Shown here piece by piece: positions 13,727 through 61,276 of a DNA stretch of 64,000 nucleotides. Origin of the DNA: Nitrospinota bacterium (GTDB taxonomy: Bacteria; Nitrospinota_A; UBA7883; JACRGQ01); contig JACRGQ010000003.1 of the NCBI GenBank assembly GCA_016217735.1, positions 1-64,000 on the forward strand, given 5' to 3'. Under the pieces are notes generated by a model. The model did no database searches, had not been told where the DNA came from, and worked only from the letters and a program-made list of their open reading frames with translations. The position numbers and the translations under genes were made by a program. The stretch's first letter is position 1; the number at the start of each line of letters is the position of its first letter.

Positions 13727-14551
13727 TTAGTCGCCAACCCCGCCGGCGCCGTGGCACGCGCCGCAACCGCTGTTACTCTCGTGCTCGTGATTCCACGTGT
13801 TCTTCCAACTGGCATAGCCATTGCTTATAGCGCCGCTGTGGCACCACGCGCAGTCGTACCCGGAGTAGTGTTTTGAGTGGCAACCGCTAACATTGCAACC
13901 GCTGGTCGCGTTCGTGTGTCCGCCGCCCCATGTACCGGCGGTACCGGCGCTGTTCAACTTGTAATAGTGGCAGGTTTCGCAGGCCGTCTGCCGCGCAGGA
14001 TCGGTTTGGTGACTGGCCGGGAAAACGGAGATGTTGTTCGCGTTGTGCTGAACCGGATCGTGGCAATTCAGGCAGACCCCTTTGAGGGCGGTGTGCCACT
14101 TGGTGTCGGATACCTGCTGTTTGACATTCTCGCGCCAACCGGCAATCCTCACCGCATCGGTCGCGGTGGGCTCCGGGGTCAAGCTGTGGCATTTGTTGCA
14201 CTGTTCGCCGGTTTTGTTGGCGGTGTGATCGAAGTTGGTGGCCAGCGCCGTATATTTGGAAAACGGGTGGCAGCCGCTTTGCGCGCAGACTTTCTCGCTG
14301 TCGACGGAATGGCAGTCATTGCAGGCATATGTGTTATGGGGAGTGGTGGTGACCCATGTGGCATGGGCGGCCGTTTTGGTGTTAATGCCCATAGCGCTCA
14401 TATCAACAGTGGTGGGAGTACCCGGGGTGGAACCCCCACCCAGTTCATCCTCCTTTCCCACGCCGCAGGCGGCGAGGGCAAAAGTGAACAACAGGATGCA
14501 GCAGAGTCCCGCCAAAAACCTTGTTTTATGTTTCACGATGTTGTTTTTCAT
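13727..14551 (-). CDS. Multihaem c-type cytochrome lipoprotein (paralogue 1)
   Basis: A 274-residue lipoprotein from ATG 14551: signal sequence ending LAAC (acylated Cys), a linker rich in Gly, Thr and Pro, then eight haem-attachment sites. Six are CxxCH (CNDCH, CNKCH, CLNCH, CETCH, CAWCH, CGACH) and two are CxxxCH (CAQSGCH, CNVSGCH). It should be an envelope-anchored electron carrier. It is paralogous to the gene 71 bases upstream, and 340 bp of DNA (13951-14290) is nearly identical to 14946-15285 in the paralogue. Start chosen at the residue that begins the lipoprotein signal. Confidence 0.85.
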   Translation of the reverse strand: MKNNIVKHKTRFLAGLCCILLFTFALAACGVGKEDELGGGSTPGTPTTVDMSAMGINTKTAAHATWVTTTPHNTYACNDCHSVDSEKVCAQSGCHPFSKYTALATNFDHTANKTGEQCNKCHSLTPEPTATDAVRIAGWRENVKQQVSDTKWHTALKGVCLNCHDPVQHNANNISVFPASHQTDPARQTACETCHYYKLNSAGTAGTWGGGHTNATSGCNVSGCHSKHYSGYDCAWCHSGAISNGYASWKNTWNHEHESNSGCGACHGAGGVGD

Positions 14552-15285
14552 AACGGCTTCATCAGTCAACGCTTTTCTCCACATCTTTTTTGCGCGAGAT
14601 AACCACTGGGCTACTTGGGCTATCAAGGAATCTTGTTGGGGTGGCAGGAGCCGCACGATCTGATATCCCACGCGGTAGTCCCCTTGCGGTGGCCGCTCTC
14701 GCTGAATGTCAGGCTCCAACTGGTATATCCGCCGGAGGCGACGTCTTTGTGGCACCACTCGCACTCAAAAGGCCCAGCGCCCAGGGAACCGCCCTGGTTC
14801 GCATCGTAGTGCTGGCCCGCAACGTAGCCGCTCTCCTGATTGAGCTGCGTGGCCGGCTTCGTGTGTACATGGCATGTGGCCGTCCGGCAACCGGTGGTTA
14901 CCGCGGGATGGCCGCCGCCGCCCCAGGTGCCGGCGGTGCCGGCGCTGTTCAACTTGTAATAGTGGCAGGTTTCGCAGGCCGTCTGCCGGGTAACATCGGT
15001 TTGGTGGCTGGCCGGGAAGACGGAGATGTTGAACGGGTTGTGCTGAACCGGGTCGTGACAGTTCAGGCAGACCCCTTTGAGGGCGGTGTGCCACTTGGTG
15101 TCGGATACCTGCTGTTTGACATTCTCGCGCCAACCGGCAATCCTCACCGCATCGGTCGCGGTGGGTTCCGGGGTCAAGCTGTGGCATTTGTTGCACTGCT
15201 CGCCGGTCTTGTTGGCGGTGTGATCGAAGTTGGTGGCCAGCGCCGTATATTTGGAAAACGGGTGGCAGCCGCTTTGCGCGCAGAC
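13951..15285. repeat. 340-bp direct repeat shared by two cytochrome genes (13951-14290 and 14946-15285)
   Basis: The two stretches, exactly 995 bp apart, differ at only a small number of positions by eye and encode the haem sites CAQSGCH to CETCH. The flanking parts of the two genes have diverged much more, which points to tandem duplication with later gene conversion of the core. Confidence 0.85.
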
Positions 15286-23029: not shown

Positions 23030-23160
23030 GGTGGGTACCCACCAAAAAAAAGCGGGACGTTTGGCAACGCCCCGCCGCGCTTGTACCCAATATGGCCTAC
23101 AGGCCACATCCGGCGCGGCTTGAAGATTAGTTCCGCGCCTCCCGAATTGGGGTCCCCACC
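23030..23160. repeat. Modular hairpin element A
   Basis: Between mdh and nfu. It opens with the 14-bp palindrome GGTGGGTACCCACC (23030-23043), contains TGGCCT-AC-AGGCCA (23093-23106) and a GTACCCAAT module (23083-23091), and closes with ATTGGGGTCCCCACC (23146-23160). The modules match those of the elements at 59664-59895 and 60918-61038. Confidence 0.7.
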
Positions 23161-23167
23161 AAAAGAA

Positions 23168-24121
<954 letters not shown>

Positions 24122-31478: not shown

Positions 31479-31505
31479 AAGGAAATATTATCAAAACTTC
31501 CCTCA

Positions 31506-31545
31506 TCGGCCCAAAGGGCCGATTCTGCCTGGCGCTTCCCGGGAA
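31506..31545. repeat. Modular hairpin element B (fragment)
   Basis: TCGGCCC-AAA-GGGCCGA (31506-31522), then CTGCCTGGCG and TTCCCGGGAAAA, the same order as the right-hand part of the elements at 40571 and 43216. It is probably a degraded copy. Confidence 0.55.
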
Positions 31546-31611
31546 AATAAAAAAAGTTTGGATAATATTGCTGGGTGCCGGGTCAATTCCGGGATAACAA
31601 GAAAGCGGCGG

Positions 31612-35355: not shown

Positions 35356-37926
35356 ATGTTATTGACTTGTCCCAAGTGCGCCACGCGCTACGAAGTGGAT
35401 GGCTCATCCATCCCCCAAGAGGGAACATACGCCCATTGCGCCACCTGTGAAAACATCTTTTTCGTAAAGAAAAAAATAAAGGCCGCATCCAAGGATGTGG
35501 CAAAAACCACAATGCCTGCCACGCAGGAACAGCCGGCGCCACAACCTGTTGAAGCCGCCGCCGAAGTTGCGGCGGAAGCCACTGCCCCGTCCTTTGAAGC
35601 AAAGCCCGCCCCGGAAGCGCCCATCCCCCCGGCCAAAGGTAAAGACGGTAAAGAGAGAAAGGACCTCACGCCGGAACAAGTGGCGGCAATCATGAGCGGG
35701 ATCGAGTACGAAGGAAAAGCGAAAGATGAAAAAAACGATTCCACCGACTTGACGGCACAGGATCAGATCGATTCCATTCTGGGGAATGTCCACGACGATT
35801 TCAAGGTAATTACCGCTCCGCTCCCCTCCGCCGTCGCGGAAAAAACGGCGGTGAATGCCGGCGACATCGAGGCGCTTTTAGCCAGCGTTCAAGCCCAGCG
35901 CCCTGAAGAACCGGTGTCCGCCCCGAAGCCCGCCGCCAAAGAAGAGGTCGGCGCGGATGACATCGCCGCCATCCTCGCATCCGTCCAGGCGCAGCAACAG
36001 GCACCGAAAAAAGAAGAGCCCAAAATGGCCACGGCAAGCGATATCGACGATATCTTTGCATCCGTCCAGGCGCAGCAACCGGCACCGGCGCCCGCCCCGA
36101 AGCCCGCCGCCAAAGAAGAGGTCGGCGCGGATGACATCGCCGCCATCCTCGCATCCGTCCAATCGCAGCAACCGGACCCGAAAAAAGAAGAACCCAAAAC
36201 GGCCACGGCAAGCGATATCGACGATATCTTTGCATCCGTCCAGGCACAGCAACAGGCACCGGCGCCCGCCCCGAAGCCCGCCGCCAAAGAGGAGGTCGGC
36301 GCGGACGACATCGCCGCCATCCTCGCATCCGTCCAATCGCAGCAACCGCCCGCCCCGGACAACATTGACGCGATATTTGCCGGCGCCAACGCCACGCCTT
36401 CGGCGGGCAAAATGGATAGCCAAGACGACATCGACGCCATTCTGATGACGGCCGCCGCTCCCGCGCCGCGGGAAAGCATTCTGGAACAGGAAGCCGTCTC
36501 TTCCACCCAAGCTCTTTCCAATAACGACATCGATTCCATCCTGGCCGGCGCGGCAACCGAAAAAGAATCTCCCGCTCCCGCCGCGCCGCGGGGAGAGGAT
36601 GGGAACATAATCTCGCAATCCGACCTCGACTCCCTCTTTGCGGCCGCCGCCGCGCCGTCGGCCCCCGCCGCGGAAAAGCCCTCGAAAGAAGCCGAGGGGG
36701 ATTTGATCTCGCAAAACGACCTTGACGCCCTGCTGGGCGAAACCAAGGCCCCGTCCGCCGCCGCGGAAGAACCGGGCGATCTGGTCAGCCAGGGCGATCT
36801 TGACGCCCTCATGACGGGGGAAGGCGCGCCGAAAGCCGCGGCCCCAGTGTCCGCGGGTCAGTTGCTGGAGGAGGGAAACGACGAGTTGGAATCGCTGTTC
36901 GCCCAGGAAGCGGGCGGCTCCATTGCAGTTCCCAAGGCGGCAACCGCGGCGGCTCCGGCGCCGGAATACGAAGGGGTCGACACCTCGATGTTCGAGGGAT
37001 TGGACAAGATAACGGCGGAAGAGGCTCCCGCCGCCGCGGAAGAACACCACGCGGAAGCGGAGAAGAAACCGGGCACACTATCCAACATCATCGCCTTTAT
37101 TAAAAATAAGCTGCCCAAACGCAAACAGAAAGAGCGGGCTTTTACCATCGAGGAAGAGCACCACGCCGAACCGGATCACGGCGAAGCGCCGAAAAAGAAA
37201 AAAGCCGGGATGCTGGTCAAGATCGCCCTCCCCGCGGCGGCGGGAGTGGCGCTGACGCTCGGGGCCGGCTGGTACTACTTTGTGAAACCGAAATCCCATC
37301 CGGTGGTGGCGGCCCAAAAAGCCGCGGCCCCGGAAAAGGCGCTGCCCGCTCCGGCGCAACCGGTGGCGGAACCGCAAAAGGAAACGCCCCCCGCCGAAAC
37401 CCACGCGGCGCCGCCGCCCGCGCATGAGGAAGCAAAAGCCGAGGCTCCCAAAGCTCCGCCGCCGCCCGCGCATGAAGAAAAGAAACCCGAAGCTCCCCCC
37501 GCCGCCACCGCCGAGGCTCCGAAGCCGAAGGACGCGAAGGAGGCCGCCGCGGCCGCGCACGAAGACGCGCGCAAGGCGGCGCTTGAGGCGGAAAAGCTGA
37601 TCCCCCCCTCCCTGGTGGAAGCCACCATCATGAAAGTGGGCGTGATGCTGCCGGTGGACTTCAACTCATCGCAGGTGAAAATGATGACCGCCGAAGTGGA
37701 ACTGCAATTCGCCACCGCGTCGGAATTCAAAACGGCGGAGGCCAAAAAATTCATCTACGAACTGGCGCTTGAAAACGAGATCGAAGTGTTCTTCAAAGAC
37801 AAGTTCTACGAAGAAACCCGCTACGCCAAAGACAAGCTGATGGCCTACCTCTTTGAGCGCATCAAAAAGCGGGGCGATCTGGAAAAGATCACCGGCGTGA
37901 ACATCGCGGAACTCGCCCTGAAATAA
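35356..37926 (+). CDS. Zinc-ribbon, multi-FliM-motif membrane scaffold protein (function unknown)
   Basis: An 856-residue protein with an unusual plan. Residues 1-35: MJ0042-type zinc ribbon (CPKC...CATC). Residues about 130-560: fourteen short motifs of the form [SQ]xD[IL]D[AS][IL][LF], such as SQNDLDALL, SQDDIDAIL, NNDIDSIL and GDLDALM, in low-complexity Ala/Pro/Lys linkers; this resembles the FliM N-terminal CheY-binding motif. Residues about 616-640: one membrane span. Then a Pro/Glu/Ala linker and a conserved-looking C-terminal domain (about 750-856, LVEATIMKVGVMLPVD onward) of periplasmic topology. A 174-bp tandem repeat codes part of the motif array. No homologue recognised. Confidence 0.85.
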   Translation: MLLTCPKCATRYEVDGSSIPQEGTYAHCATCENIFFVKKKIKAASKDVAKTTMPATQEQPAPQPVEAAAEVAAEATAPSFEAKPAPEAPIPPAKGKDGKERKDLTPEQVAAIMSGIEYEGKAKDEKNDSTDLTAQDQIDSILGNVHDDFKVITAPLPSAVAEKTAVNAGDIEALLASVQAQRPEEPVSAPKPAAKEEVGADDIAAILASVQAQQQAPKKEEPKMATASDIDDIFASVQAQQPAPAPAPKPAAKEEVGADDIAAILASVQSQQPDPKKEEPKTATASDIDDIFASVQAQQQAPAPAPKPAAKEEVGADDIAAILASVQSQQPPAPDNIDAIFAGANATPSAGKMDSQDDIDAILMTAAAPAPRESILEQEAVSSTQALSNNDIDSILAGAATEKESPAPAAPRGEDGNIISQSDLDSLFAAAAAPSAPAAEKPSKEAEGDLISQNDLDALLGETKAPSAAAEEPGDLVSQGDLDALMTGEGAPKAAAPVSAGQLLEEGNDELESLFAQEAGGSIAVPKAATAAAPAPEYEGVDTSMFEGLDKITAEEAPAAAEEHHAEAEKKPGTLSNIIAFIKNKLPKRKQKERAFTIEEEHHAEPDHGEAPKKKKAGMLVKIALPAAAGVALTLGAGWYYFVKPKSHPVVAAQKAAAPEKALPAPAQPVAEPQKETPPAETHAAPPPAHEEAKAEAPKAPPPPAHEEKKPEAPPAATAEAPKPKDAKEAAAAAHEDARKAALEAEKLIPPSLVEATIMKVGVMLPVDFNSSQVKMMTAEVELQFATASEFKTAEAKKFIYELALENEIEVFFKDKFYEETRYAKDKLMAYLFERIKKRGDLEKITGVNIAELALK
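35920..36350 (+). repeat. 174-bp tandem repeat inside the scaffold gene
   Basis: Units start at 35920, 36094 and 36268 (the last partial), an exact 174-bp (58-codon) period. Each encodes an EVGADDIAAILASVQ block and a SDIDDIFASVQ block. In-frame periodicity allows copy-number change without loss of reading frame. Confidence 0.85.
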
Positions 37927-39823: not shown

Positions 39824-40576
39824 ATGTGGGTACACGCGGGGGGCCATAAGGTTTATTACGAGCAGGCGGGGGACGGCGAACCCCTTCTCCTGCTTCACGG
39901 CTGGGGAGTGAGCGGCGAGATTTTCAGGCCCCTGCTGATGCGGCTTGCCGGGCGGCTGGAGGTTCGGGCCATCGATTTCCCCGGCTTCGGCCAGACCGAA
40001 AAACCGGACGGCGCGTGGGGAACCGAAGAGTACGCCGAGCTGGTGAAAAAAATCCTCGATGCGTGGGGGCTGAAAAGCATCGATATCGTCGGCCACTCCT
40101 TCGGCGCGCGGGTGGCGCTCCGCCTTGCCCACCGCCATCCCGAATATGTGAAAACGCTGATACTCACCGGCGCGGCCGGCATCCGCATCCAAAAACCCGC
40201 GCCGCTCTCCCGCAGGCTGCTGGTGAAAGCGGGCAAGTTTTTCGGCAATCTCGGCGCGCCGGGACGGATGGTCAAGGAGGCCATATATAGGAAGGTCAGC
40301 TCCGCCGATTACCTCGCCGCCGGGGCGATGCGCCCCACCCTCGTCAAAGTGGTCAACGAAGACATGCGCGGCATCCTCCCCGCCATCACGCAACCCGTTC
40401 ATCTGATCTGGGGGGAAAACGACCGCGACACCACGCTGGAGGCGGCGGAAATCATGCACGCCGGGCTGAAGAACTCGACGCTTACGGTAATTCCGGGGGC
40501 GGGGCATTATGCGTTTCTGGACAGGCCCGAAGAATTTTACCAACATCTTAATAAGGCGCTGGGTGGAAGCAGGTAG
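39824..40576 (+). CDS. Alpha/beta hydrolase
   Basis: A 250-residue hydrolase with oxyanion motif LLHGWG, nucleophile elbow GHSFGA (Ser), catalytic Asp in WGENDRD and His in GAGHYAF. Start at ATG 39824: TATGAT (39812-39817) ends 6 bases before it with no Shine-Dalgarno; an upstream GTG (39797) would include the promoter. The last codons (AGC AGG TAG) fall in the left end of hairpin element C. The Mur-ligase-like gene 120 bases downstream is probably a functional partner. Confidence 0.85.
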   Translation: MWVHAGGHKVYYEQAGDGEPLLLLHGWGVSGEIFRPLLMRLAGRLEVRAIDFPGFGQTEKPDGAWGTEEYAELVKKILDAWGLKSIDIVGHSFGARVALRLAHRHPEYVKTLILTGAAGIRIQKPAPLSRRLLVKAGKFFGNLGAPGRMVKEAIYRKVSSADYLAAGAMRPTLVKVVNEDMRGILPAITQPVHLIWGENDRDTTLEAAEIMHAGLKNSTLTVIPGAGHYAFLDRPEEFYQHLNKALGGSR

Positions 40577-40667
40577 GTCGCACATTCCTGTGTGACATTG
40601 CCCCGCAGGGGCAACCGGTTGGCCCTTTGGGCCGACGACAGGCAGGAATGCCCGTCCTGCCGGGAAA
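40571..40667. repeat. Modular hairpin element C
   Basis: Order: AGGTAGGT end (40571-40578); GTCGCACA-TTCC-TGTGTGAC (40577-40596); TTGCCCC-GCA-GGGGCAA (40598-40614); GGCCC-TTT-GGGCC (40621-40633); GGCAGGA-7nt-TCCTGCC (40641-40661); then GGGAAAAA. The left end contains the stop codon of the hydrolase gene. Confidence 0.75.
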
Positions 40668-43215: not shown

Positions 43216-43370
43216 AGGTAGGTCACACAGCCTGTGTGACATTGCCCCGCAGGGGCAACCGCTTTCGGCCCGGTGGGCCGATGACAGGCAGGATGGGAGG
43301 AGCGGAACGGCTTTTTCCATCCGCTCCGGAGATGGCCTATAGGCCGTTGCCCGTCCTGCCAGGAAAAGGT
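43216..43370. repeat. Modular hairpin element D
   Basis: In the 364-base spacer before the nfn genes. Order: AGGTAGGT end; GTCACACA-GCC-TGTGTGAC (43222-43240); TTGCCCC-GCA-GGGGCAA (43242-43258); TCGGCCC-GGT-GGGCCGA (43265-43281); GGAGCGGA...TCCGCTCC (43299-43306/43320-43327); ATGGCCT-AT-AGGCC (43332-43345); an outer GGCAGGA/TCCTGCC pair (43287-43293/43354-43360). Shares order and modules with element C but has an extra inserted module. Confidence 0.75.
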
Positions 43371-58497: not shown

Positions 58498-58526
58498 AAA
58501 GGATGCCGTGGTACCTTATGGGCAAG

Positions 58527-59660
58527 ATGATTTCACGCTACGGCATAGGGTTGATGAGCGGCACGTCGGGGGATGGTGTCGACGCCGCGCTCGTCGATTT
58601 TGCCGATGGCAAGGTGCGGATTGCGGCAACGCACTTCCTCCCCTACCCCGCAAAGCTGCGCGAAGAGGTGTTCCGCGCGAGCCAGCCGGACGGCCCGGCG
58701 GAGCTTATCTGCCGCCTCAATGTTGAGATCGGAAAGCTTTTCGGCACGGCGGCCGTTGCGCTTTGTAAAAAAGCAAAAATCCCGCTCAAGCAGGTGGAGT
58801 TCATCGGCTCGCACGGCCAAACCATCCGCCATCAGCCGAACGGCAAAAACGGGGTATCCTCCACCCTCCAGATTGGCGAAGGAAGTGAAATAGCCGCCCT
58901 CACCGGCTGCTGGGTGGTTTCCGATTTCCGCCCCGCCGACATCGCGGCGGGCGGCTGCGGCGCGCCGCTTGCCCCGCTGGCGCACTACGTCCTCTTCTCC
59001 GATAAAAACGAAGACCGCGTTGTACACAACATGGGGGGAATATCGAACATCACCTGGCTTCCGGCCGGCGTTGGCATCGAAGGGGTAACCGGATTCGATA
59101 CCGGCCCGGCGAACATGCTGCTCGATATGGCCTCGGCGCATCTTTCAAAAGGGAAGCGGGCATATGACAAAAACGGCGCAACGGCCCTGCATGGCGCGGT
59201 GGACAAAAAAATGTACGCGCATTGCATGGCGCATCCCTACTTCAAGCGGAAGCCGCCCAAGAGCACCGGCCGCGAAACATTCGGCCCCGCATACTTCGCG
59301 GAGCTTCTTAAAAAATTCGGAACGGTGAAGGAGGCGGATTTCCTCCGGACGCTGGCGGCGGCGGCCGCATCGTCGGCGGTGGATCAGGTTTTTGCGTTCT
59401 GTAAACCGAGGCGGGCGCTGCGCTGGATCGTCTGCGGCGGCGGCGCGTACAACAAAGCGCTGCTGGATGAATTACGCGCGCGGCTTGCGGGGCGCGGCGC
59501 GGTGACAATGAGCAGCGAACTCGGTTACGGCGAAAAAGACATCGAAGCGGTGTTGATGGCGGCGCTGGCCTACCGCACCATCAACGGCCTGCACGGCAAC
59601 ATCCCGAAAGTGACCGGCGCGAAACGCCCCGCCCTCCTCGGCAAAATCTCCATCCCCTGA
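58527..59660 (+). CDS. anmK: Anhydro-N-acetylmuramic acid kinase
   Basis: Phosphorylates anhydroMurNAc to MurNAc-6-phosphate in cell-wall recycling. The 377-residue ASKHA-fold enzyme has the GIGLMSGTSGDGVDAA start, ADIAAGGCGAPLAPL and the sugar-binding GFDTGPAN. Starts at 58503, 58518 and 58527 are possible; 58527 fits homologous N-termini best, and a TGG-TACCTT extended -10 (58509-58517) lies 9 bases upstream. NagZ (20689) is the upstream enzyme of the same pathway. Confidence 0.92.
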   Translation: MISRYGIGLMSGTSGDGVDAALVDFADGKVRIAATHFLPYPAKLREEVFRASQPDGPAELICRLNVEIGKLFGTAAVALCKKAKIPLKQVEFIGSHGQTIRHQPNGKNGVSSTLQIGEGSEIAALTGCWVVSDFRPADIAAGGCGAPLAPLAHYVLFSDKNEDRVVHNMGGISNITWLPAGVGIEGVTGFDTGPANMLLDMASAHLSKGKRAYDKNGATALHGAVDKKMYAHCMAHPYFKRKPPKSTGRETFGPAYFAELLKKFGTVKEADFLRTLAAAAASSAVDQVFAFCKPRRALRWIVCGGGAYNKALLDELRARLAGRGAVTMSSELGYGEKDIEAVLMAALAYRTINGLHGNIPKVTGAKRPALLGKISIP

Positions 59661-59663
59661 TAC

Positions 59664-59895
59664 CCGTGGCGCGGAGCGCCTTTTCTCCGGGCAGGGGCGC
59701 TTCATTCGCCCATTGGCGCAACGCGCCATGTGTGAGTCATGCCTTACGGCATGATGTACCCAATAAATTGGGTACCCACCGAGGCTGTTCCCGGTAGGTA
59801 CACATTTTAATGTGTACATTGGCGCAACGCGCCAAGCAGCTTCCCCCATCGGCCCGTCGGGCCGAGAGTGCGACTGAAGTCGCACCTACCGGGAA
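59664..59895. repeat. Modular hairpin element E with 12-bp terminal inverted repeats
   Basis: Hairpins in order: GGCGC-GGA-GCGCC (59668-59680); TGGCGC-AAC-GCGCCA (59714-59728); TCATGCC-TTAC-GGCATGA (59737-59754); GTACCCAAT-AA-ATTGGGTAC (59756-59775). Then a 108-bp unit bounded by perfect inverted repeats TTCCCGGTAGGT (59788-59799) and ACCTACCGGGAA (59884-59895), enclosing GTACACATT..AATGTGTAC, TTGGCGC-AAC-GCGCCAA, TCGGCCC-GTC-GGGCCGA and GTGCGACT-GA-AGTCGCAC. Confidence 0.8.
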
Positions 59896-60677
59896 AAATC
59901 CCGCAGCAGCGCCGCTATCCGCTCCGCCACGTCGCGGGAAAAAAGATAGCCGGTGTGCCCCAGCCCCTCCACCTCGATATTCTCCGCGCCCGGCAACAGC
60001 GCGCTCTCCCCCGGCACCACCAGTTGGTCGAACCGCGACCAGAGGCAGGTAAACGGAATTTCCAGCGCGGCGATGACGTCGCGCGTGGCGCGCAAATAAT
60101 CGGTGCCGGGGATGAGCCGCCGCCCGGCGGGCGCGATGCCGAAATACGACATGACCGTGCCGCCGAACGGCGCGCCGAGCGTGATGATTTTCCGCACCGC
60201 CCCGCGCGGCAGCAGCGATGCGGCATGCGCCGCCGCCAGCCCGCCGAAGCTGTGGCCGATAAAAACAATCCCCCCTTTGTGATCGCGCAGCCCCTCGGCC
60301 AGCCGCGCGCTCCACTCCTCCAGCCCCCCCGCCCCCTGATACTTGGGGCGGATGACGTTGGCGATTCCCGCGCGGCGCAGCCGGAGCGCCAGCGGCAGCC
60401 AATGCGCCGGCGTGCTGAAAAGGCCGTGAACGATCACGATCAGCGGGCGTTCCGCATCCCGCCGCCTTTTTTTCATCAGGGCATCGAACGGCATCACCAA
60501 AAGCACGATGGCGATGAACAGGATTTCATAAATCCATTCGCGCAGCAGCCAGCAGATGCGCACGGCCGCCGTGACCGGCGGTGACGGCATATGCCGCGTC
60601 ATGGCGGCGGCGACGGCGTACGTAATCAGCGTTTCCGCCAGCGTGATAAAAAACGCCGTCTCAACCAACAAAAGCAT
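59886..60677 (-). CDS. Membrane-anchored alpha/beta lipase-like hydrolase
   Basis: A 263-residue protein from ATG 60677 with two hydrophobic N-terminal segments (about 1-22 and 45-65) and an alpha/beta hydrolase domain: VHGLFSTPAHW oxyanion region, nucleophile elbow GHSFGG, then FDQLV and GHTGYLF for Asp and His. It resembles lipases and acyl hydrolases of the inner membrane. A TTG start at 60689 is possible. Its 3' end (TCC CGG TAG) lies in the right terminal repeat of element E, which provides its stop codon. Confidence 0.8.
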   Translation of the reverse strand: MLLLVETAFFITLAETLITYAVAAAMTRHMPSPPVTAAVRICWLLREWIYEILFIAIVLLVMPFDALMKKRRRDAERPLIVIVHGLFSTPAHWLPLALRLRRAGIANVIRPKYQGAGGLEEWSARLAEGLRDHKGGIVFIGHSFGGLAAAHAASLLPRGAVRKIITLGAPFGGTVMSYFGIAPAGRRLIPGTDYLRATRDVIAALEIPFTCLWSRFDQLVVPGESALLPGAENIEVEGLGHTGYLFSRDVAERIAALLRDFSR

Positions 60678-60849
60678 AAAGGATGCCAAGGCCGAGGAAC
60701 ATCAGGGCCAGACCGCCGACGCGGAGCACACGGGTGTCCATCGAGGCCATGAGGAGGGCATAGCGCCGCATCATCTCCGGGCTTATGAAATAGGGCAGCC
60801 CTTCGATGATGAGCACCAACCCAAACGCCGTCATAAAAAGTTCCATCAT
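60661..60849 (-). CDS. DUF2065-type small membrane protein
   Basis: A 62-residue protein with two hydrophobic segments (about 5-20 and 42-60) in the pattern of DUF2065/YjeT proteins (EGLPYFISPEMMRRYALLM). GGAG lies 7 bases before ATG 60849 and the promoter TGA-TATAAC is about 30 bases upstream. It overlaps the lipase start by 17 bases, suggesting coupled translation. Confidence 0.75.
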   Translation of the reverse strand: MMELFMTAFGLVLIIEGLPYFISPEMMRRYALLMASMDTRVLRVGGLALMFLGLGILYAFVG

Positions 60850-60917
60850 CCACTATCTCCGTTGTGCCGGTTATATCACAGATTCCCCGCCCGCCCGTTG
60901 GCCGCGCGGCCCCTCCT

Positions 60918-61135
60918 GGTGGGTACACATTTTAATGTGTACATTGGCGCGGAGCGCCAAGGGATTTCGGCCCCTTGGGCCGATGTACCCAATAAATTGG
61001 GTATCCACCGGGAAAACCAAATATGGCCTACAGGCCATTTACACTGCGCGCCGAAGGCGCTTGTGTGAAAAAGACGGAACAGTCCCGCGGACTGTCCGCT
61101 TTTTTCCGCCGCGGATTGAATTGCCAATTCCGCGG
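60918..61135. repeat. Modular hairpin element F
   Basis: In the 454-base spacer before the division cluster. Hairpins in order: GTACACATT-TT-AATGTGTAC (60923-60942); TTGGCGC-GGA-GCGCCAA (60944-60960); TCGGCCC-CTT-GGGCCGA (60967-60983); GTACCCAAT-AA-ATTGGGTAT (60985-61004), with an outer GGTGGGTA/TATCCACC pair; then ATGGCCT-AC-AGGCCAT (61023-61038), GCGCC-GAA-GGCGC (61048-61060), ACAGTCC-CGC-GGACTGT (61079-61095) and CCGCGGA..TCCGCGG (61109-61135). The first four occur in element E in the same or similar order. Confidence 0.8.
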
Positions 61136-61230
61136 CTCCTTAAACCGGCGCAATATGCTTCCTGATCCGGAGATTTGGAATCCCCGGCTCCGGCGGGACA
61201 CATTGCCGAAGACCGGGGATACATGATGTC

Positions 61231-61276
61231 AAAAGGGGGAGGCCCGGCCTCCGGCGGGGGTGCGCCGGAGGCCGGG
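61231..61276 (-). terminator. Terminator of the ftsA-ftsZ-DUF484 transcript
   Basis: A 13-bp GC-rich stem (CCCGGCCTCCGGC at 61243-61255 with GCCGGAGGCCGGG at 61264-61276) and an 8-base loop, followed on the minus strand by CCTCCCCC and TTTT (61234-61231). Confidence 0.65.

Follow-up and report, generated by a model that had tools for sequence, protein, structure and literature searches.

A four-hairpin repeat unit of a Nitrospinota bacterium, most probably a REPIN, and its association with RAYT genes

Segment 59788-59895 of a 64,000-nucleotide stretch of Nitrospinota DNA (the window, i.e., the whole stretch analysed here) was described in an earlier note as four hairpins enclosed by perfect 12-bp inverted ends, and interpreted there as a mobile non-autonomous unit. 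What kind of element is this, and by what means might it have spread? We consider it very probable that the unit is a REPIN, i.e., an inverted pair of REPs of the BIME type, spread most likely in trans by a RAYT (TnpA-REP), a small domesticated HUH transposase that this genome itself encodes. The source genome (G000; 2.53 Mb in 76 contigs) was compared with three congeners (G001, G002, and G003) at species level, with one genome representing each species.

Anatomy of the unit and its neighbours

The inverted ends lie at 59788-59799 (TTCCCGGTAGGT) and 59884-59895 (ACCTACCGGGAA), exactly as previously described, and the four hairpins between them are all perfect (Table 1). The similar ends reported at 40571, 43216, 60918, and 23030 were each located as well. 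Four hairpins between inverted ends in so short a segment is far beyond chance. As single-stranded DNA the segment is predicted to fold at -36.5 kcal/mol, compared with -15.7 on average for shuffled sequence (z -9.1; none of 200 shuffles as stable). The window contains two strict units of the form GGTRG-hairpin ... hairpin-CYACC, whereas 50 first-order Markov resamplings yielded none (mean 0.0, maximum 0). In the predicted fold the two REPs make one separate hairpin each, and pairing between the two ends is confined to heads and flanks. No Rfam model matched within the window at gathering score. The named unit proved to be the second of a tandem pair, the first member of which (unit 1) was absent from the earlier note; both occupy a 228-bp gap between anmK (58503-59660, PF03702) and a convergent alpha/beta hydrolase gene (59886-60689).

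Table 1. Positions and composition of the repeat units in the window (loops in lower case).
Feature	Position	Strand	Composition
Unit 2 (named unit)	59793-59890	.	98 nt; GGTAG head, four hairpins, inverted CTACC head
Unit 2, left REP	59793-59817	+	GGTAG 59793-59797; hairpin 59798-59817, GTACACAT ttta ATGTGTAC; fits REP pattern
Unit 2, inner headless hairpin A	59819-59835	.	TTGGCGC aac GCGCCAA
Unit 2, inner headless hairpin B	59849-59865	.	TCGGCCC gtc GGGCCGA
Unit 2, right REP, inverted	59868-59890	-	hairpin 59868-59885, GTGCGAC tgaa GTCGCAC; CTACC head 59886-59890
Unit 1, directly upstream of unit 2	59690-59780	.	91 nt; left REP worn (GGCAG)
Unit 1, hairpin A	59714-59728		
Unit 1, hairpin C	59737-59754		TCATGCC ttac GGCATGA
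Unit 1, right REP	59756-59780		GTACCCAA taaa TTGGGTAC and CCACC
Unit 3	60918-61009	.	92 nt; GGTGG REP, A, B, REP, CCACC
Related unit	40572-40661	.	GGTAG ... TTGCCCC gca GGGGCAA ... CCTGCC
Related unit	43217-43360 (right limit approximate)	.	right REP apparently split by a further palindromic insert
GGTGGGTACCCACC	23030-23043	.	14-bp palindrome; a worn unit then runs to about 23180

Other repeats were noted in the same DNA. The insert that seemingly splits the right REP of the unit at 43217 (43265-43360) carries a GGAGCGGA hairpin and ATGGCCTATAGGCCGT, while another dispersed palindrome, ATGGCCTACAGGCCAT or similar, occurs at 61020-61070 and 23080-23180 of the window and near units at two further loci (L018 and L040). 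At 31483-31600 a lone TCGGCCC hairpin precedes a TGCCGGGTCAA-type stretch that matches many congener sites, another dispersed repeat family. A 174-bp tandem repeat, the core of which is present in three copies (93-96% alike), occupies 35905-36346, and the two copies of a 300-nt direct repeat at 13920-15214 are 94% identical and 995 bp apart.

A genome-wide family with resident RAYT genes

A DNA search of the source genome with 59680-59900 returned 50 similar sites, query included. Of 37 stretches surrounding DNA matches and two Y1_Tnp matches, most contain short hairpins in arrays, drawn from a small number of recurrent types. Their common grammar is a GGTAG or GGTGG head, a 7-9 bp hairpin closed by a four-base loop, a headless hairpin or two, another hairpin, and CTACC or CCACC. 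The REP-only search pattern GGTRGGTRCNNNNTTYANNNNGYAC, in which eight stem bases are open, the spacer is free and the REP loop is fixed as TTYA, matched 33, 16, 3, and 72 times in G000, G001, G002, and G003, respectively, and its reversed control had 0 matches in each. Pairing of the eight open stem bases is perfect in 105 of these 124 matches (one mismatch in 16, two in 3), and the commonest stem cores, CCAA, ACAA, CCAT, and ACAT, each occur with the matching partner, indicating that the REP stem varies on both sides together. A strict inverted partner lies within 150 nt of 71 of the 124 matches, the remaining 53 being without one. Removal of units longer than 110 nt, and of second views of the same unit, reduced the partnered matches to 49 distinct head-to-head units, 46 of which measure 88-98 nt. 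As the left and right REP stems are unlike in 47 of the 49, the unit would form four short hairpins, rather than one long cruciform. No pair of at least 90% identity was present among the 10 G000 units compared, hence there is no sign of recent copying in that genome, and the family may be inactive there.

Two genes in G000 exceed the NF047646 cut-off for RAYTs. They lie on contigs C23 and C57, and the former (ORF 1810-2397 of locus L047) scores 80.7 bits against a curated cut-off of 80. All eight RAYTs aligned (two from G000, one each from G002 and G003, and one from each of four other genomes of the family) share an invariant DHxH (HUH) motif and a single invariant tyrosine column, and from its position this tyrosine is the presumed catalytic residue. 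A phmmer search at E <= 0.001 found no PDB relative. A further Y1_Tnp match in G000 (C53) passed the Pfam cut-off but reached 28.2 bits, against 55, with the IS200 model, and was set aside as no GGTRG hairpins were seen in its surrounding stretch.

The RAYT genes are physically linked to the repeats. The gene on C23 has a four-hairpin unit on either side, the two being alike in orientation and 93% identical across 137 nt, and a headed hairpin lies within 450 bp of all 10 RAYT genes examined in G000-G003, on both sides in eight cases. The RAYT match of G001 contains a stop codon, and G002, the genome of which is 78% complete, has three RAYT matches and three REPs; RAYT and REP counts are not closely parallel. 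In other genera of the family the arrangement is simpler, with a plain pair (GGTAGGTGCGAC ttca GTCGCACC GGTGCGGA tgaa TCCGCACCTACC) in G005, and a pair enclosing one headless hairpin at the second RAYT gene of G005 and in G006. Two tandem arrays adjoin RAYT genes. In G003 (L161, contig C125, about 1052-1450), four units of the four-hairpin type are repeated with a 102-bp period, and beside the second RAYT gene of G000 (L158, contig C57, about 1700-1840) stand three tandem single REPs (GGTAGGTGCGGCA ccc TGCCGCACC), the loops of which, at three bases, are unlike those of the remaining REPs.

Alongside the observed anatomy, copy number, fixed size, RAYT-gene linkage, and absence of a sister unit from congeners (see below), a proposed action of the enzyme can be outlined. 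On single-stranded DNA the RAYT would recognise each GGTRG-headed hairpin, with the head 5' and T at position 2 of a four-base loop, and would cut and rejoin the strand near the REP. The copied piece would be delimited by two REPs of opposite orientation, and the two inner hairpins would fill a spacer of fixed length, each folding by itself.

The inner hairpins, two extra ones per copy, are an unusual feature for a REPIN, and differ from the outer ones in what is conserved. The outer REPs conserve head and loop: among 95 four-base loops of headed hairpins, 91 have T at position 2 (TTTA, TTCA, CTCC, CTCT, and TTCC being commonest), in loci chosen mostly by DNA similarity to units, such that stem conservation there is partly a product of how the loci were chosen. 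The inner hairpins conserve the stem while their loops vary freely. In the 49 units, type A (TTGGCGC or TTGCCGC) occurs 41 times with 22 kinds of loop, type B (TCGGCC-type) 25 times with 19, and type C (TCATGCC) 10 times with 8, in addition to one shortened A. Counting perfect stems of at least 6 bp only, 30 units have two inner hairpins, 17 have one, and two have none. A is paired with B in 21 of the 49 and with C in eight; B with C was not seen in any of them.

It is conceivable, if on balance doubtful, that this contrast reflects a composite REPIN, in which the RAYT would read the outer REPs by head and loop, and a different reader, be it a host protein, the RAYT at a second contact, or a process at the level of the fork or of RNA, would recognise the inner pair by its stems. 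Were there two such layers of recognition, the inner pair would, under the rule of A plus either B or C, be a module open to exchange, and the family would represent a kind of REPIN that is not described in the excerpts of four key papers on these repeats (PMC3116915, PMC2817692, PMC3733652, PMC8266576). Also possible, and no more probable, is that the inner hairpins are what is left of earlier REPs that lay within the spacer, and have no role. REP-derived stems (e.g., GTACACAA, GTACATGCT, and GACGGACA) do occur within some longer units, but remnants would not readily account for the regularity of the slots described above, the fixed unit length, the lack of a REP consensus in the inner loops, or the presence of headless inner hairpins (TTGCCCC or GTTGCCCC) at RAYT flanks in two other genera.

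Mobility and the nature of the ends

The unit at 40572 is absent from the corresponding gene junction in G002 and G003. The site measures about 147 nt in the window, versus about 9 nt between the same genes in these two congeners. Their upstream gene has ...ALEIK or ...VLEIK as the end of its product, with a stop codon that overlaps the start of the following gene. The two genes are set apart in the window (40562-40605), where the TAG of the unit's head serves as the stop codon of the upstream gene. The target duplication named as a check in the earlier note is not visible at this one empty site. Transposases of the single-strand HUH type (IS200/IS605 family) are not expected to leave one. The unit at 43217 is likewise missing from a shorter gap in G003, and G001 has longer DNA at both positions, without such a unit. 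For the named unit there is no clean empty site in G001-G003, since the DNA of the anmK-hydrolase gap differs in each: G001 has a short gap with one hairpin, in G002 there is a four-hairpin unit whose stems are of a different family, and G003 contains a worn hairpin together with other genes. This gap therefore turns over. Two identical 95-nt units of G001 (contigs C25 and C67) have right flanks that diverge directly after CCACC; their left flanks are common for 119 of 121 nt, and the pair is therefore not a clean single-unit insertion. All of this evidence is comparative, between species (74-82% protein identity for the flanking gene), and no movement has been seen; at this level, mobility of the units is supported.

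Unit 3 occupies a junction of a different kind. In the window (60885-61235) the hydrolase and ftsZ blocks adjoin, and in all three congeners they lie on separate contigs with other, mutually agreeing neighbours; the junction may have arisen by rearrangement at a REPIN, or through misjoining in the assembly.

While the general class proposed in the earlier note is thus upheld, by REPIN-like anatomy, the presence of RAYT genes, and a site empty in two congeners, its reading of the ends as those of a transposon is not. The "terminal inverted repeat" is two REP heads plus the preferred TTCC flank. Among 98 flanks, T at -5, T at -4, and C at -3 occur in 55, 51, and 63, respectively, and the TTCCC/GGGAA extension of the named unit agrees with this general preference. 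The fourth head base (A or G) is uncorrelated between the ends of the 49 units (left-right GG in 21, GA in 19, AG in 6, and AA in 3), on which basis transposon-type terminal repeats were rejected. Similarly, a closing stem formed by the inverted ends is predicted for the one named unit and, as the head base shows no co-variation, is not taken to be maintained. The back-to-back palindrome at 23030, once put forward as a possible empty site or excision product, is not the former, as an empty site would lack both heads; in G001 and G003 neither head is present there, a nearby terminator hairpin is conserved, and the upstream DNA is different. GGTGGGTACCCACC may at most be a collapsed REP, in which the part between two GTAC halves has been lost and the heads and GTAC remain.

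Retention of the units for a role in RNA, be it ending transcription or shielding mRNA 3' ends after stop codons, with mobility incidental or past, is in our view unlikely. As RNA the named segment is predicted to fold at -60.5 kcal/mol (z -7.6), its perfect stems are rich in G+C, and the conserved stems and free loops of the inner hairpins would suit such a role. So would placement: 29 of the 33 G000 REPs lie between called ORFs (13 in convergent, 12 in tandem, and four in divergent gaps), with two at contig edges and two inside an ORF, although the gene calls behind these counts are crude. The hairpins of the named unit are not, however, followed by a T-tract, and an RNA role leaves unexplained the outward GGTRG heads, the REP-loop T, and the linkage to RAYT genes. 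A classical MITE, the terminal inverted repeats of which would be mobilised by a DDE transposase with duplication of the target, is highly improbable despite the perfect 12-bp ends of the named unit and the 40572 site that is empty in congeners, given that GGTAG and GGTGG vary independently at the two ends, that the empty site has no duplication, that either end makes up a whole hairpin with a loop of fixed type, and that such hairpins adjoin RAYT genes.

Comparison with known systems

REPINs, BIMEs, and RAYTs have been described previously (PMC3116915, PMC2817692, PMC3733652, PMC8266576), and a limited library yielded no paper on REPs or RAYTs in Nitrospinae or Nitrospinota. The present family has the headed palindrome of GTAG type in many copies, the inverted REPs at set spacing, and the RAYT gene with flanking REPs of BIMEs and REPINs. 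With the REPINs of Pseudomonas fluorescens SBW25, as presented in excerpts of their original description (Bertels and Rainey, 2011; PMC3116915), it shares two inverted REPs as a unit, fixed spacing, a foldable spacer, compensatory changes, the link to a RAYT gene, and tandem clusters. In SBW25, however, pairing between the arms produces a single long hairpin, which the near-strict heterodimer rule of the present family prevents, and the spacer here contains individual headless hairpins, each of a set type.

The head-to-head dimers of GTAG-REPs (Di Nocera et al., 2013; PMC3733652) are alike in their outside heads, stems of 6-9 bp, short loops, heterodimers, location downstream of genes, and RAYT genes with repeats on their flanks. 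GTGG heads are on record in the same source (O. terrae GTAG-20), as are small stem-loops in spacers, with several CGTC-3 dimers of A. tumefaciens having two in the spacer. The excerpts of that paper do not list Nitrospinota among the phyla with GTAG repeats, nor describe a regular inner pair of A plus B or C with free loops, as found here.

For the question of how REPs spread, and of whether the moving unit is the REP or the pair, the value of this family lies in its fixed unit, several RAYT genes with whole flanking units, empty sites in congeners, and the combination of loop-conserved outer and stem-conserved inner hairpins; through the last contrast, the features read by the RAYT and the purpose of the spacer can be tested directly.

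As for the enzymes, the group 3 TnpA-REP/REP pairs share with ours REP palindromes that are short, perfect, and headed by GTAG, and an importance of single loop positions (T13 in REP-Mb of Marinomonas), according to excerpts of that study (Corneloup et al., 2021; PMC8266576); the RAYTs here are known from sequence. Finally, in the REP-associated tyrosine transposases (Nunvar et al., 2010; PMC2817692), as presented in excerpts of that account, inverted REPs flank RAYT genes and the HUH and tyrosine residues are common to both systems; several of the genes described here are flanked by whole four-hairpin units, and not by single REPs alone.
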